Origin: a virus
Length of the DNA: 37,301 nt
Virus record (IMG/VR): IMGVR_UViG_3300037342_000049
Location: 1 to 37,301 of that record
Reading direction: 5' to 3' (one strand)
The notes below the pieces were generated by a model. The model saw only the letters and a list, made by a program, of their open reading frames with translations. It had not been told where the DNA came from and did not search any database. Of the stretch, positions 1 through 37,301 are shown in pieces. Position 1 is the stretch's first letter. Each line of letters begins with the position of its first letter. The position numbers and the translations under genes were made by a program.

Positions 1-127
1 ATATATAAATTTTCATTTTAATTAAGGAAGTGTTTGCATTTTAATTAGGAATCTTTAATATTGATCTCGTACGAAATCTAATTAAAGACTCCTAAGGCAA
101 AGTGTCGCAAACACTTCCTTAAAAGTT
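1..127. repeat. Left copy of the 127-bp contig overlap (circular junction)
   Basis: Bases 1-127 are identical to 37175-37301. An exact direct repeat at both ends of a contig is the signature of a circular or circularly permuted molecule. 127 is also a common assembler k-mer length, so the exact size is probably an assembly artefact and not a biological terminal repeat. The unique genome would be 37174 bp. Confidence 0.95.
21..121. repeat. Nested imperfect palindrome, about 100 bp, at the genome junction
   Basis: The outer arms TTAAGGAAGTGTTTGC (21-36) and GCAAACACTTCCTTAA (106-121) are perfect 16-bp inverted repeats. The inner arms TTAGGAATCTTTAAT and ATTAAAGACTCCTAA match at 14 of 15 positions. 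The centre is the self-complementary TCGTACGA (67-74). All three layers share one axis near base 70.5, so the element could extrude a long cruciform or act as a large dyad binding site. On the circle it lies just upstream of the replication-initiator-like gene (36236-37159) and downstream of the 191-692 regulator operon. An origin, an operator or a terminator are all possible; the sequence does not decide. Confidence 0.75.
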
Positions 128-129
128 AA

Positions 130-172
130 ACACCCTAGCAGACAATCCGAAAGAGTGCCTGCTAGGGTGTAC
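130..172 (-). terminator. Rho-independent, probably bidirectional terminator
   Basis: ACACCCTAGCAG (130-141) pairs perfectly with CTGCTAGGGTGT (160-171), giving a 12-bp stem. It is flanked by T-rich tracts on both sides: ACTTTTTTC when read on + and TTTAACTTTT when read on -. It sits immediately after the stop of the leftward 191-466 gene, so its main job is probably to end that leftward transcript. Confidence 0.75.
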
Positions 173-190
173 TTTTTTCAGGATTTTTAA

Positions 191-466
191 TCAATCTTTT
201 TCGCACGCGCCATCTAATCCGCCGGTTTCTTCCAATGTGTCCCAAATTTTGAAGTTCGCGTCAGCTATTTTTACCATTTCTTGAAACATCTCCGCGCGAC
301 ATTCTTTGCGTATGACTTTGTGCACGATTATAAAGAACGAGGTACTTAAGATTTTGAGGATTCTGTTATTATCATGTGGATAAAGATTTTTTAGCAAAGT
401 CAGCACAGTATTAATATCACTGAAACAAACTCCTTCTTCATCAGTCTTTGTTAAGTTTAACTTCAT
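191..466 (-). CDS. Hypothetical protein, partner of the Cro-like regulator
   Basis: This is a 91-residue protein I do not recognise. It is mainly helical with a hydrophobic middle (around ILSTSFFIIVHKVI) that is too mixed to be a sure membrane segment, and an acidic C-terminus. The start is supported by an AAGGAGCGAAAA ribosome site ahead of the ATG. It overlaps the end of the upstream HTH gene by 26 bases, so the two are co-transcribed and probably translationally coupled, and they share the terminator at 130-172. A small regulator or a toxin-like partner of the HTH protein are both possible, but neither is shown by any motif. Confidence 0.75.
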   Translation of the reverse strand: MKLNLTKTDEEGVCFSDINTVLTLLKNLYPHDNNRILKILSTSFFIIVHKVIRKECRAEMFQEMVKIADANFKIWDTLEETGGLDGACEKD

Positions 467-692
467 TTTTCGCTCCTTTTTTTCTTGAAATTCCGTTTTT
501 AATCATCTCCCAAGCTAGGACTTCGCCGCGGGTAAGCTGCTCAACTTTCATCGCTAATTTAAAAGAGGGTCTATAACCCATTTTGAGCTGATATATGCGA
601 GTCACAGAAGAGCCCAAATCCTCAGCGAATTTCTTAATAGAAAAATCTTTATTTTTTTTCTTTTCAAAATGTATCCAATCGTTTATGTCCAT
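441..692 (-). CDS. Cro/YdaS-like helix-turn-helix regulator
   Basis: This 83-residue DNA-binding protein has a central helix-turn-helix (FAEDLGSSVTRIYQLKMG, roughly residues 20-37) followed by a third helix and a basic tail. The layout resembles Cro and YdaS-type phage repressors, including the closing pattern VEQLTRGEVLAWEM. An upstream in-frame ATG at 794 exists, but AAAAGGAGG lies 8 bases before the ATG at 692, so I choose that start. It diverges from the early rightward operon at 812. An inverted repeat at 742-764 touches both promoters, so the protein probably controls both directions, including its own gene. The family assignment comes from pattern, not from a search. Confidence 0.85.
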   Translation of the reverse strand: MDINDWIHFEKKKNKDFSIKKFAEDLGSSVTRIYQLKMGYRPSFKLAMKVEQLTRGEVLAWEMIKNGISRKKGAKNEVKLNKD

Positions 693-715
693 ATAGAGTG
701 CCTCCTTTTGCATCA

Positions 716-745
716 ATTGTAAATCGGGGCGAAAGTTTTTAGCAA
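716..745 (-). promoter_or_regulatory. Leftward promoter of the regulator gene
   Basis: On the minus strand TTGCTA (740-745) and TACAAT (716-721) are separated by 18 bases, close to the sigma70 consensus. The transcript would begin near 709 and run through the AGGAGG site into the gene starting at 692. The -35 box overlaps the left arm of the inverted repeat at 742-764. Confidence 0.55.
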
Positions 746-789
746 GAAGAATGTTTTTTCTTGCCTCAAATTGCACAAAATGATAACAT
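742..789 (+). promoter_or_regulatory. Candidate operator and rightward early promoter
   Basis: GCAAGAA (742-748) and TTCTTGC (758-764) form a 7-bp inverted repeat with a 9-base spacer, a typical size for a dimeric HTH repressor site. A rightward promoter can be drawn as TTGCCT (761-766), 17 bases, TAACAT (784-789), whose -35 overlaps the right arm. A protein bound here would touch both divergent promoters. The promoter boxes are weak matches. Confidence 0.4.
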
Positions 790-5365: not shown

Positions 5366-6215
5366 ATTCATCTCTTGGCATATATTTAGTAGGCATCCCA
5401 TACGAGTTTACTCTTGAGGCATGCCTCTCCTCGCATGTAAAATACCAGAGCCCATTTTCTTCAATCATCAGGACTTGAGCACAATGCTTATACCAACGCT
5501 TTAGGGAATCTTCACTTATTAAATTCCCTTCAAAATAGAATGAGTAATCGTACGAATTAGACGTACAGTTGCCAAAAACAAGCGCCGATGAATATCTATA
5601 AATGGTATACTGACTATTTTGAGCGTCACAAAATTGTAAAGCATCCAGTTGATATTTATCGTTTAGAAAATATCTTTTCAAATCCACGTCCCACAAATAC
5701 CAGTCGTTATTTTGTTTTACCTCAATAAGTGTATGGCCGTTATCGTAACTATTCCAAGGATCGAGTGTAAGGAAGAGGACAATTCGGCTCTGAATGTTAT
5801 ATGAATTCAATATGGCTTGATAAAAATACGAAGCGCTTCCGCATATCATTTGGATTTTACGCGTCTCAGCAATCTTCATCTTATCTGAAAAGCTTTTCTG
5901 GTCGTCCTCATATCCATGCCAATGCACCCATGCCAGGCTTTTCATGAGTGTGAGAAAATTTTTGTTATAGACAACCCTTTGAATGTGAGACTTTCCTATA
6001 TCACCAATCCTATAAACGCCCTCCCTGCTCATATCGTAGTGAATTCCTTGATGAATATATGTTCCCGGAGGAATGATCAACGAATTATGTAAAGGATACT
6101 GAGCTTGTTTTACCGTTTTAAGTGTAGTACAGTTATCGCCGCTAACAAAGTAGGCAAAATCATGAGACAAAAGAGGAGTAGAAAATAAAAAAAAAATCAG
6201 GAAGTATTTAATCAT
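5319..6215 (-). CDS. Secreted transglutaminase-like cysteine protein
   Basis: This 298-residue protein starts with a short Lys and a hydrophobic stretch (YFLIFFLFSTPLLS), a probable Sec signal peptide. The middle matches the transglutaminase-like core: a nucleophile in MICGSASYFYQAIL (C125), then GHTLIEV (H161), then WYLWDVD (D176), in the usual C-H-D order and spacing. Such domains act as proteases, peptide or isopeptide hydrolases, or crosslinkers. It is the last gene of the late operon and its ATG overlaps the tailspike stop (ATGA). A role in envelope breakdown, lysis or modification of a surface protein is possible. No cell-wall binding domain is visible. The triad is seen in the sequence; the activity is inferred. 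Confidence 0.75.
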   Translation of the reverse strand: MIKYFLIFFLFSTPLLSHDFAYFVSGDNCTTLKTVKQAQYPLHNSLIIPPGTYIHQGIHYDMSREGVYRIGDIGKSHIQRVVYNKNFLTLMKSLAWVHWHGYEDDQKSFSDKMKIAETRKIQMICGSASYFYQAILNSYNIQSRIVLFLTLDPWNSYDNGHTLIEVKQNNDWYLWDVDLKRYFLNDKYQLDALQFCDAQNSQYTIYRYSSALVFGNCTSNSYDYSFYFEGNLISEDSLKRWYKHCAQVLMIEENGLWYFTCEERHASRVNSYGMPTKYMPRDEFKARFYPHKKIPRDH

Positions 6216-7549
6216 GCAATACGCCTAGCTTGGATAACTCCGGTGACAGTTACCGTTGCAGATGTAGCCGCAACATAAGCATTCAGATAATAGGTAGTTG
6301 CGCCGGCTGTATTCACTGTTGCGGGCCCTAAAGATTGTGTAGGAGTGTTAGCCGTAGTTAAATTGTATTGGGTTTCAGCCGTTGCTGGACTAACAGCTAG
6401 TCCATCAATAGGAGTAAAATTGCTTGACGATGTTGCTAAAGCTCCTTGAATAGTTGTGGGAGCGACTGCAACCGAAAAAGAATAGACCAATTTTCCCGTG
6501 ATTATCCAAGTGCCTGCCGTTGGCGTAAATGAAGTAATGTTGGTTATAGTATTTACTGACGTACTCACGCCTGCGCTATTTTGAGTCGTTAAAGTTTCCC
6601 CTATATATCCCGCCGTCGGAGCAGTAGACGACTGATTGCCTATGGTGCCTTTAGGCGTTAGAGTTGTCGCGCTAAGAGTTCCTATTGTGTTTTCCTGCGC
6701 TAAGGTGCCACCATATACTAACGTGCCAGCTCCACTTATGGCTGCCGAATTGGTGCTATTAAGGGAAATATTGGAGACCGTCAGTGTGGCGGAGGCTCCT
6801 ATGGTAATAGGTGTTGCACTTCCCGTACTAAATGAGCTGTTTTCTACGAAAAATGGTGCTGCTCCTGTAGTGGCATTTTGATTGATAGCAGCGCTATTTA
6901 CGCCACTCGTGTCAAATCTAGTGCTATACACAAGCAACTTCGCGGTGGTGCCTGAAAGAGTCGTGGGATTTCCTACAAAACAATTGATATAAGTTAACGG
7001 CCCCCCGGACTGGGTATTAGCCGTTGTCGAGAGTCCCCCGTTGTTTAAAATACATCCTTCCAAAAAGAAAGAGCCATTTGTGGAGGAAAAATAAGCGATT
7101 CCGGTGGTGCTTAGTCCTCCTGTGCAATTGTATATATTGACTGCCGCCGCAGAGTTAGATCCTGTTGAAGAAATGCCTGTATTGTTTGTGCAGCTCAAAA
7201 AGGAATCATAGATATTAAGAATAGTAGCGTTAGCGCCAGTCAAAGAAACGATATTGGCTGAATTGGTTAGTAATTCTATACCAGAAATGGAACACGTTCC
7301 GGAATAGGAACAATTTATGGTACCCTGGATCACGGTGGCGGAAGTAGAAGCCGACCCTGTCCAGGATACAATGTCAACACCGGCAATCATAGTGAGATTG
7401 CCCATGTATGTTCCAGGCCCTACAACTATTGTCCCTTGGTAGCCCGATGTAAACGCGGCAGTTAAAGCGGCAGTAATTGTTAGGAAATCCCCGTTGCCAT
7501 CCTGTCGGACTAAAAATCCATCGGAAACTGAGTAATTACGATAAGCCAT
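6212..7549 (-). CDS. Parallel beta-helix tailspike or tail fibre
   Basis: This 445-residue protein opens with a pectin-esterase-like signature (VRQDGNGDFLTITAAL, then IVVGPGTY), the usual first turns of a right-handed beta-helix. A long Asn/Ser/Thr-rich solenoid with N-I-Y turns follows, then an Ala/Thr-rich C-terminal region (TPTAGTWIITGKLVYSF onward) that looks like a beta-sandwich or trimerisation head. Phage proteins of this build bind or cleave host surface polysaccharide. I choose the ATG at 7549, after GGGATAAAA and just past the upstream stop; a longer frame to 7615 would overlap that gene. No catalytic residues can be named. Confidence 0.75.
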   Translation of the reverse strand: MAYRNYSVSDGFLVRQDGNGDFLTITAALTAAFTSGYQGTIVVGPGTYMGNLTMIAGVDIVSWTGSASTSATVIQGTINCSYSGTCSISGIELLTNSANIVSLTGANATILNIYDSFLSCTNNTGISSTGSNSAAAVNIYNCTGGLSTTGIAYFSSTNGSFFLEGCILNNGGLSTTANTQSGGPLTYINCFVGNPTTLSGTTAKLLVYSTRFDTSGVNSAAINQNATTGAAPFFVENSSFSTGSATPITIGASATLTVSNISLNSTNSAAISGAGTLVYGGTLAQENTIGTLSATTLTPKGTIGNQSSTAPTAGYIGETLTTQNSAGVSTSVNTITNITSFTPTAGTWIITGKLVYSFSVAVAPTTIQGALATSSSNFTPIDGLAVSPATAETQYNLTTANTPTQSLGPATVNTAGATTYYLNAYVAATSATVTVTGVIQARRIA

Positions 7550-24592: not shown

Positions 24593-24683
24593 TTAAATAC
24601 CGGTTGAGCGTAAATTTTCAAGCCACAAGTCATTCGTGATGCACTGCCCTTGATAAAACGAGCAACCAGCTGTATGTCTTAAC
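24593..24683 (-). CDS. Major capsid protein, exon 3 (C-terminus)
   Basis: This exon supplies the last 30 residues of the capsid protein. After splicing, the first G completes the split AT|G codon from exon 2, followed by LRHTAGCSFYQGQCITNDLW and LENLRSTGI, then TAA. The stretch NDP-C-M-L-R-H-T-A-G formed at the junction parallels the NDP-x4-TVGW motif I recall near the C-terminus of N4-gp56 family capsids. The exon ends right at the ribosome site of the next gene. The exon start is predicted from the intron fold, the reading frame and a P10-like pairing of GUUAAGA with the intron 2 guide (six of seven positions). Confidence 0.8.
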
Positions 24684-24940
24684 CATTCTATTACTTTCGG
24701 CAACAGCTTGCCTACTGACCAATTACTTGGCGGGGGAACCGCTTCGAATTCCCCTCTACAGGTTTCCTCTGTAGTTTGGACTATCGCATCCCCAAAAGGG
24801 GTCCGAACACTTAGTCTCTCACGCTGGTAAACATATTCTATTCAACATAATTACCTTGCGCCTTATCGCCCTAAGCAGCTTGCTCGTAGGCTTCTAAGTC
24901 AATCAGTTCAGATTTTACATGCACATTTAAAAAGATTTTT
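24684..24940 (-). ncRNA. Group I intron 2 in the capsid gene (ORF-less, 257 nt)
   Basis: Read leftwards, the elements are: P1, exon CATGCAT (24941-24947) with guide GTGCATG (24918-24924), including the U.G pair at the splice site; P3, TCTGAAC (24906-24912) with GTTCGGA (24802-24808); P4, CTTA/TAAG; P5, CCTA-AGCA/TGCT-TAGG; P6, GCGC/GCGT; P6a, GGTAA/TTACC; P7, GACTA (24812-24816) with TAGTC (24779-24783); P8, CCCC-TTTT-GGGG; P9, CTACAG-AGGAAAC-CTGTAG. J8/7-P7 reads ATGCGATAGTCC, close to the usual group I core. The intron ends in G. Most stems differ from intron 1 by compensating changes, which is strong evidence for an RNA fold. Subgroup not assigned. It carries no complete ORF. Confidence 0.9.
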
Positions 24941-25005
24941 ATGCATGGGTCGTTGTTATATCCAGGAGGCAGATAGATAAATCTAGCTTTTCCTCCGGCC
25001 TGCCA
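24941..25005 (-). CDS. Major capsid protein, exon 2 (65-nt mini exon)
   Basis: This short exon encodes WQAGGKARFIYLPPGYNNDP, then Cys and the first two bases of a split codon. It lies between two group I introns. The left boundary follows the 5' splice pairing of intron 2 (U.G at CATGCAT). The right boundary follows the 3' end of intron 1, where exon bases TGGCA can pair with TGTCA of the intron 1 guide (P10). Both boundaries keep the capsid frame: exon 1 ends on a codon boundary and exon 2 plus exon 3 restore the split codon. The F-I-Y-x-P-P-G...NDP order fits the capsid family. Confidence 0.85.
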
Positions 25006-25798
25006 CTTGCTGTTACTTTTATGACCATGTATAAACATGGCGGATACTTCATTTCTGAGTATCTCCCAAGGTTTCCTCTTGGGTTCGGAACATCGCATCA
25101 CCTTTCGGTGTTTTCTCGCTTGTTCTCTCAGCGTGGTGTTTATGCTCGTGATGTAAATAGAAATGACACGTTGAACAGAGCCAAATGACATCATAAGGGT
25201 TTGAATAATCTTCATGATGGGCATGAGGAGTACATGATTTATCACATTTAGAACATTGTTTAGGTCGAATAATCTTGCCTGTTTCAACCGCATACATTGT
25301 TCTATCATGTACTCTTCTTTTTTCTGGATTTTTCTTGTCCCAATTTGAAGTTCTTTCGTTCCTTTTTTTACGTCCATTCTCCGTATTATAATACTTTCTG
25401 GTTGCTTCGAGAGACATTTCCCTGGCTTTTCCCAGATTTCTTTCGTACCAAGAACGGCTTTGCTTAAGTCTTTTTTCTCTATTCTGTTTTTGCCATTCAG
25501 AAACGTAAATCTTCTTGTTTGCAATAGCTTCGGCAGACTTTTTTGATCTCTTAACGCTTTCACAACAGCATTGACGACATCTAGGATTGACGCCATCTTT
25601 GGAGCATTTAAGTTTTCCGAATTCATTGTAATCTTTTTCTTCTTTACATCTTTTACAATTTCTCATATGGCTCCATTTACGGGTTTGCCATACGATATTA
25701 TCAAAACACCTTCGCCCTTGTCACCATAATTACGCAGCTATTGCATAATCGTAGGCTTCCAAGTCAATCAGAGAAAATTTATAGTGGTCTGACACTTT
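25006..25798 (-). ncRNA. Group I intron 1 in the capsid gene, with HNH gene in P6a (793 nt)
   Basis: Elements in order: P1, exon AGTGGTT (ending at 25799) with guide GACCACT (25783-25789) and the U.G pair; P3, TTTTCTC (25771-25777) with GAGAAAA (25111-25117); P4, CTTG (25760-25763) with CAAG (25717-25720); P5 including ATTATGC/GCGTAAT; P6, GGCG/CGCT; P6a, GGTGTTT (25704-25710) with AAACACC (25135-25141), whose loop holds most of the HNH gene; P7, GAACA (25121-25125) with TGTTC (25088-25092); P8, CACC-GAAA-GGTG; P9, CCCAAG-AGGAAAC-CTTGGG (25065-25083). The J3/4 sequence TGATTGA and the P9 loop AGGAAAC are identical to intron 2, while the stems covary. The intron ends in G at 25006. Confidence 0.92.
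25049..25666 (-). CDS. Intron-encoded HNH homing endonuclease
   Basis: This 205-residue protein has an N-terminal zinc knuckle (C4/C7 and C30/C33), a basic helical middle with repeated arginine/lysine blocks, and a C-terminal HNH module: CSKC (138-141), HAHHEDY (148-154), then CSTCHFYLHH (164-173). HNH homing enzymes cut intron-free alleles so the intron can be copied in. The ATG follows TGGAGCC within the P6a loop. The last 30 codons run through P6, P7, P3, P8 and P9, so the same bases encode both protein and ribozyme core; translation and folding must therefore compete. The gene is inside the capsid gene, on the same strand. Confidence 0.92.
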   Translation of the reverse strand: MRNCKRCKEEKDYNEFGKLKCSKDGVNPRCRQCCCESVKRSKKSAEAIANKKIYVSEWQKQNREKRLKQSRSWYERNLGKAREMSLEATRKYYNTENGRKKRNERTSNWDKKNPEKRRVHDRTMYAVETGKIIRPKQCSKCDKSCTPHAHHEDYSNPYDVIWLCSTCHFYLHHEHKHHAERTSEKTPKGDAMFRTQEETLGDTQK

Positions 25799-26590
25799 AA
25801 CCACTTTGTAAGACTCTTTAGCGCAGACAAAGCAATTAGCAATATCATTGCCAAGCATCGAAGCACCAGGCGTTACAGATCCTTGTGAAGAAACGAACAT
25901 ACGAACGTTATTTACGCCGCCCCATTCGGTTTGTAGGGTCTTTTCAACATTAGGATATTGAAACTTCCTTAGGAACTGCTGAATGTTGTTGAATACCGGT
26001 ATCATTCTAGTTGTAGCCAGCATGATATAGGCATCACCAATCGGCGATGTTCCTATCTTCAATTCGCCAGGGATCATATCCGTAATGTATTCTGCATCAT
26101 TATTTTGCAGAATCGTTACAATGTCATCTGTATCACTCAAACTCATTTCAGTCGGCAAATCGCCGTTAACACCACCCACGCAATTTACTACGGAGGCTGT
26201 TGCTTCTAGTTCATCACGAACCAAAACATCCTGAGTTTCCCTCATTGCCTGCCCCAAACGGGCTGCTGCGCTATTGAGGACTGGGTCTTCGTTCGTTATT
26301 GTCACCTGTCTCGTCATAACAATATAAGTTGAGAAAACGCGGACTCTACAATCTACGTCTACTCTATTCAATTGTTGCGGAGGAGGATTGTTCATGGCGT
26401 CATCATTAGGCACAGGGAACAGGTTTAGCCTGTCGTACCTTGATTGCCTATCGATAAAACCTTCGTTGTCTGGCAACTCCACTGGAACAGCGCCTAACAT
26501 GTGAATTAGATTGCGTTCAGGAGTTGACAGAAGCTTAGAATTATAACGCTGCTGAATTTGCGACGGCAGCGTGGCTAAAGAAACTGTCAT
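25799..26590 (-). CDS. Major capsid protein, exon 1 (N4-gp56-like, residues 1-264)
   Basis: This exon encodes 264 residues and ends ANCFVCAKESYKVV at a codon boundary. Without splicing the frame runs on to a stop at 25730, giving a 286-residue product whose last 22 residues are intron sequence. The start follows GAGGTGATAA. Position after the scaffold gene and family pattern (LSTPERNLIHMLG, RVFSTYIVMTRQVTI, LVRDELEATASVV, GDAYIMLATTRMIPVF) point to an HK97-fold major capsid of the N4-gp56 type. Spliced with exons 2 and 3 (join 25799-26590, 24941-25005, 24593-24683, all minus) it makes 315 residues. About 50 C-terminal residues depend on two splicing events, so virion production should require intron removal. 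Confidence 0.9.
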
Positions 26591-37174: not shown

Positions 37175-37301
37175 ATATATAAATTTTCATTTTAATTAAG
37201 GAAGTGTTTGCATTTTAATTAGGAATCTTTAATATTGATCTCGTACGAAATCTAATTAAAGACTCCTAAGGCAAAGTGTCGCAAACACTTCCTTAAAAGT
37301 T
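37175..37301. repeat. Right copy of the 127-bp contig overlap
   Basis: Identical to bases 1-127. The leftward promoter of the initiator gene must lie in or near it: on the minus strand TTGCGA and, 18 bases on, TTTAAT form a weak sigma70 match inside the palindrome. The same bases make up the nested palindrome described at 21-121. Confidence 0.95.

Follow-up and report, generated by a model that had tools for sequence, protein, structure and literature searches.

Two probable group I introns in the major capsid gene of a 37.3-kb phage, and a capsid-gene intron hotspot among its relatives

How does a phage encode a full-length capsid protein when the plain reading frame of its capsid gene ends at 286 residues? 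The question is raised by IMG/VR virus record IMGVR_UViG_3300037342_000049, all 37,301 nucleotides of which were analyzed here and are referred to as the window. Its two ends carry a 127-nt direct repeat (1-127 and 37175-37301), and the window therefore probably represents an entire genome, either circular or terminally redundant.

According to an initial annotation of this DNA, a 65-nt exon of the major capsid gene is flanked by two group I introns. In this study, that proposal emerged as the best reading of the locus, on the grounds of fold, P1 and P10 pairings and uninterrupted homologs. We consider it about 95% probable that the major capsid gene of this phage is interrupted by two self-splicing group I introns. 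Exon boundaries, a covarying fold, splice-site pairings, relatives at the same sites, and selection on both the intron ORF and the exons are observed directly.

Exons and product of the capsid gene

The gene lies on the minus strand. Exon 1 (25799-26590; 792 nt, residues 1-264) was defined by its ORF, by its match to the PHROG 1357 major head protein (E = 1.6e-14) and by uninterrupted homologs. Exon 2 (24941-25005, minus strand; 65 nt) encodes WQAGGKARFIYLPPGYNNDPC and the first two bases of M286, and exon 3 (24593-24683, minus strand; 91 nt including the stop) provides the last base of M286 and then LRHTAGCSFYQGQCITNDLWLENLRSTGI. To delimit these two exons, we aligned a capsid profile to the DNA with a splice-aware program of our own that has terminal-T and terminal-G rules built in. 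On the window, the program placed introns of 793 nt (25798-25006) and 257 nt (24940-24684), in agreement with the proposed splices. The terminal G of an intron is imposed by the program, and only its agreement with the reading frame constitutes a test. The figures predicted earlier proved exact: an in-frame splice of 792 + 65 + 91 nt yields a 315-residue product, and read-through yields 286 residues, composed of 264 residues plus 22 wrong ones (the intron-encoded tail KVSDHYKFSLIDLEAYDYAIAA), with 51 residues lost.

Homologs in viral contigs were used to examine the spliced frame. Among the 80 that were kept, 75 were uninterrupted, 76-84% identical over the full 315 residues, and had no internal stop. 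This sample favors the best-scoring genes, and was not used as a source of intron frequency because the best-scoring genes are the uninterrupted ones. In 69 uninterrupted alleles, pN/pS was 0.233 in exon 1 vs 0.069 in exons 2 and 3 read in the spliced frame, which is the pattern of strong purifying selection on the two short exons.

The spliced protein also scored higher than the read-through form against the PHROG 1357 major head protein (66.3 bits, E = 4.5e-18, vs 54.7 bits). The suggested N4-gp56 label did not hold: PHROG 1357 was the best match, and Pfam Phage_capsid_4 was reached only at E = 0.1. Genes for a terminase and a P22-like portal, i.e., a head-gene neighborhood, are located upstream. 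Family match and neighborhood together identify the predicted product as the major capsid protein. An AlphaFold model of this protein built from 29 relatives was poor (mean pLDDT 32). DNA matches to isolate phages were short ones only, the useful ones being to Desulfovibrio phage 7757 and Podoviridae sp. ctn9Y15.

Regulated alternatives could accompany full splicing: skipping of exon 2 would yield a 281-residue protein whose tail differs, or the 286-residue product of read-through might serve in the virion. For neighboring group I introns, exon skipping has been reported in the SIOphi polymerase and Twort orf142 genes (PMC11878797), it has been investigated for tandem introns (PMC10136302), and the middle exon here is just 65 nt long. 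However, skipping this exon shifts the frame, and the many intron-free alleles have neither alternative tail; therefore, neither tail is essential in the group. We regard such alternatives as improbable, and full splicing to the 315-residue protein as the preferred reading.

Ribozyme core and splice sites

A 21-nt stretch of the intron core was found in 38 viral contigs, and 17 compact introns of this family were aligned for covariation analysis. The stems named in the initial annotation were all present and covaried far beyond chance. Across P3, P4, P5, P6, P7, P8 and P9, 97.3% of cells were paired, and 23 of 33 pairs had changes on both sides. Double-change cells numbered 135, compared with 38.4 +/- 5.4 in shuffled and 20-29 in slid alignments. 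Covariation was seen in P3, P4, P6, P7, P8 and P9, and the two counted P5 pairs were invariant. RNAalifold recovered the same helices except the pseudoknotted P7. These introns thus possess the catalytic core P3-P4-P5-P6-P7-P8-P9 with a P3/P7 pseudoknot. In P7, the outer pair across a bulged base was A-U in 12 introns and G-C in 5, and the pair 160-201 was an invariant G-C. The bulge and outer pair correspond to those of the guanosine-binding site of group I introns, in which a bulged base of P7 adjoins a conserved G-C pair.

Intron 1 (25006-25798, minus strand; 793 nt) has the 5' splice site GTGGTT/AAAGTG and the 3' splice site AGCAAG/TGGCAG, as assigned by splice-aware alignment, covariance model, P1 and P10. 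Its P1 (25783-25805) pairs exon AGTGGTT (25805-25799) with intron GACCACT (25789-25783). From the sequence and covariance model alignment, the 5' strand of P3, TTTTCTC (25771-25777), pairs with GAGAAAA (25117-25111), and P9 is CCCAAG/CTTGGG (25065-25083). The model alignment also delimits a P7/P3/P8 block (25088-25125) that contains P7 5' GAACA (25125-25121), the 3' strand of P3, P8 (25110-25099) and P7 3' TGTTC (25092-25088).

Intron 2 (24684-24940, minus strand; 257 nt) has no ORF, and its splice sites, ATGCAT/AAAAAT (5') and TAGAATG/GTTAAG (3'), were assigned by covariance model, splice-aware alignment and P10. In its P1 (24918-24947), exon CATGCAT (24947-24941) pairs with GTGCATG (24924-24918). 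The 5' strand of P3, TCTGAAC (24906-24912), has the partner GTTCGGA (24808-24802), and all seven P3 pairs covary. The covariation alignment also supplied the P7/P3/P8 block (24779-24820), with P7 5' GACTA (24816-24812) after the bulged base, the 3' strand of P3, P8 (24801-24790) and P7 3' TAGTC (24783-24779), and the P9 helix CTACAG/CTGTAG (24756-24774).

Each intron has a 7-bp P1, with the U.G at the 5' splice site that had been claimed for both. A P1 of at least 6 pairs ending in U.G occurred at 37 of 44 donors of relatives, which were picked by protein alignment alone, vs 11% of random T positions. The P10 pairings in the window comprise 5 and 3 pairs. Over 95 introns, a P10 of at least 3 pairs was present in 78%, compared with 26% when exons were shuffled.

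We also searched with a covariance model of the family, R1, which was trained without intron 1 and partly with intron 2. It detected intron 1 as two halves split by the ORF, with 40.9 and 41.8 bits (E = 3.1e-9 and 5.4e-9). Its score for intron 2 (140.5 bits, E = 2.6e-34) is high by construction because this intron is among the training sequences. The next match within the window had an E value of 0.35. R1 also gave weak matches (E = 0.012-0.06), at the correct places, to introns already known in T4 nrdD and Twort orf142.

The initial annotation had proposed that the absence of a match to the Rfam group I model would refute the introns. RF00028 was indeed silent, with no match to either intron at the gathering score or at E values up to 10, and it recognized none of five loci that carry close relatives of these introns. 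Yet the positive controls matched (T4 nrdD at 105 bits; Tuc2009 at 43 and 27 bits). RF00028 misses the whole family, and its use as a refutation test would therefore have misled. It is a detection model and describes no defining structural feature, and the absent match reflects a gap in model sensitivity. Gene callers truncate such capsid proteins, and the standard RNA model gives no warning.

Splicing, mobility and origin of the two introns

Splicing chemistry, endonuclease activity and homing are deduced from the features above. The guide sequence of each intron would pair with the exon end, forming P1 with its closing U.G and locating the 5' splice site. Guanosine would be bound in P7, and the next exon would be aligned through P10. 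Two transesterifications per intron would then join exons 1, 2 and 3 into an mRNA that encodes all 315 residues of the capsid protein.

Intron 1 contains a 205-aa ORF (25049-25666, minus strand) that was absent from the initial account. It matches the PHROG 2340 endonuclease (E = 3.7e-33), a family also known from DNA polymerase genes of Bastillevirinae, where it resides in group I introns (PMC11878797). ORFs 69-76% identical to it are located in introns at the same codon 264/265 of other phages. A pN/pS of about 0.25 points to purifying selection. This match and the residence at a fixed intron site identify the ORF as an HNH-like homing endonuclease whose cleavage is putative. There was no Pfam match for the protein, and a profile search against solved structures returned nothing credible. 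The 3' end of the ORF codes through P3, P8, P7 and P9 of its own intron (25049-25125, minus strand), and this DNA is therefore protein code and ribozyme at once. Intron 1 would be mobile: the endonuclease may cut intron-less alleles at codon 264/265, and repair would copy the intron in.

At the site of intron 2, the introns of L093, L144 and L181 contain long ORFs. That of L144 matches PHROG 2340 (E = 2.8e-33), and the ribozyme around it differs little from the one in intron 2. Intron 2 is the ORF-less counterpart of an intron that bears an endonuclease at codon 286 elsewhere. Having lost its endonuclease, it would persist by accurate, neutral splicing, perhaps aided by co-conversion with intron 1, which is 65 nt away. 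It may be co-carried when intron 1 homes, because repair of the cut could copy the adjoining 65 nt together with intron 2.

The origin of the pair was examined in an intron tree based on 3' cores, with the guide sequence excluded (124 columns); many of its forks are open. Intron 1 fell among site-265 introns and intron 2 among site-286 introns. Over the family tree, 26 changes of site label were counted, vs a mean of 38.7 and a minimum of 33 when labels were shuffled. The 5' cores of the two introns are identical at 22 of 23 nt, as they would be if both had arisen by local tandem duplication within this gene. However, the shared core is near-invariant across the whole intron family, and each intron is closest to an intron at its own site elsewhere, intron 1 to that of L101 at site 265 (87%) and intron 2 to that of L144 at site 286 (91%). 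Duplication is therefore very unlikely, and the two introns of the window most likely represent separate lineages at two sites. Some genes do hold sister introns at different sites, e.g., L108 (sites 96 and 261) and L118 (sites 15 and 223). In the tree, the two introns of each such gene are closest to one another, a placement suggestive of within-genome jumps to new sites.

Capsid genes as an intron hotspot

Intron frequency was estimated in a sample in which relatives were gathered by their portal gene and not by intron content. Among 61 complete capsid genes in this sample, 28 (46%) were interrupted: 33 had no intron, 22 had one, 3 had two, 2 had three, and 1 had five. It had been thought that two introns in a capsid gene would be uncommon, a view that fails within this phage group. 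The capsid gene of L143 (12526-15204) has five introns, at codons 181, 219, 265, 286 and 299, and those of L108 (8396-11198) and L112 (45-3114) apparently also have about five. These three were the densest capsid genes observed in the gene family. Insertion sites with a good P1 numbered at least 13 in the portal-selected set and over 20 when more distant capsids were included. Intron counts in the distant capsids depend on our own alignment program and its terminal-T and terminal-G rules; unmasked gene-structure runs on these genes gave spurious introns and were replaced by runs limited to covariance model matches. In L186, a distant intron-containing capsid homolog (1-768, minus strand) and the portal gene (5473-7440, plus strand) are on different strands, which departs from the usual gene order.

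In 27 whole contigs with model matches, the matches clustered in one place, which was the capsid gene wherever checked. ORF-holding introns at codons 265-301 mostly carry HNH-like ORFs on the sense strand. Some introns at codons 104-144 have LAGLIDADG-like ORFs antisense to the capsid gene (L086, 1876-2379, minus strand; L139, site 144; L185, site 116). That the gene is a broken one with inserted DNA that is never removed, or an assembly artefact, could be read from the plain frame ending at 286 residues, but this is the least probable explanation, since L017 and L018, contigs from other samples, hold both inserts with exon 1 100% identical, exons 2 and 3 are strongly conserved, and relatives have dozens of inserts elsewhere in the gene that share the ribozyme core and restore the frame on removal.

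Taken over all sites, the data did not support a preference of introns for the most highly conserved DNA (0.764 vs 0.756, p = 0.32); the six C-terminal sites do fall in the most conserved stretch. Genes with an intron at site 265 also had one at 280 or 286 in 3 of 3 cases (L083, L135 and L143), vs 7 of the 58 other genes of the portal-selected sample, by a hand count with a hand-calculated Fisher p of about 0.003 that is uncorrected for relatedness. This pairing, which possibly reflects co-conversion, is a lead and no result.

Introns of the family were also observed outside this phage group. In L131 (3692-5207; MW202674.1, 16569-18084), the annotation divides a P22-type coat gene into two "P22 coat protein" genes, one on either side of a family intron (125 bits). 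In L130 (461-4236; Desulfovibrio phage 7757, PV062637.1), an unannotated nrdD-like gene (anaerobic ribonucleotide reductase) contains a family intron with an HNH-like ORF and apparently an intein too.

Intron-bearing phage capsid genes are already known, and the window is a further case in an unusually rich hotspot. In Lactococcus phage Tuc2009 (NC_002703), a group I intron with an HNH endonuclease gene likewise splits the major head protein gene, but there is one intron, and it is visible to Rfam though below the cut-off, whereas the family of the window is wholly invisible. In mycobacteriophage LittleE, the major capsid gene is interrupted by an 819-bp intron, probably of group I and with an endonuclease, and splicing of this intron was proven by RT-PCR and N-terminal sequencing; unlike here, this is a single intron in an HK97-type siphovirus capsid gene of a larger phage (PMC3706429). 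Group I introns also split the MCP of Delta and Zeta crAss-like phages, known from metagenomic genomes, into up to five fragments, but the Zeta genomes are 145-192 kb and have introns and inteins in many genes (PMC7886860), whereas here the phages are 37 kb and the family was seen in the capsid gene only. The Bastillevirinae share with the present phages several group I introns per gene (up to three) and PHROG 2340 endonucleases, and their splicing was shown in vitro or in infected cells; their introns differ in residing in DNA polymerase, terminase, thymidylate synthase and ribonucleotide reductase genes, and are mostly IA-like and found by existing models (PMC11878797). What may be new is the intron density in a small-genome phage group and a family outside the public RNA model; a search of the open-access PMC literature found no prior description of such density or of this family.

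Taken together, the data raise the tentative possibility, which we hold to be somewhat less than even, that the capsid gene serves as a dedicated nursery, in which one Rfam-invisible group I family occupies at least 20 sites, with up to five introns per gene, through homing at old sites and within-genome jumps to new ones. Its endonucleases may cut the capsid gene of co-infecting intron-less phages; such action against co-infecting phages has been reported for an intron endonuclease of phage PhiPA3 (PMC11620839).

Phage introns are said to favor genes for nucleotide and DNA metabolism; why they do so has been called an open question (PMC11878797, PMC12350094). The present case stands in contrast: a late structural gene with a very abundant product carries introns, at many sites, in nearly half of the alleles sampled. 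In these phages, alleles with no intron, with an endonuclease-bearing intron and with an ORF-less intron coexist at the same sites, and nature thereby supplies a data set on the homing cycle.
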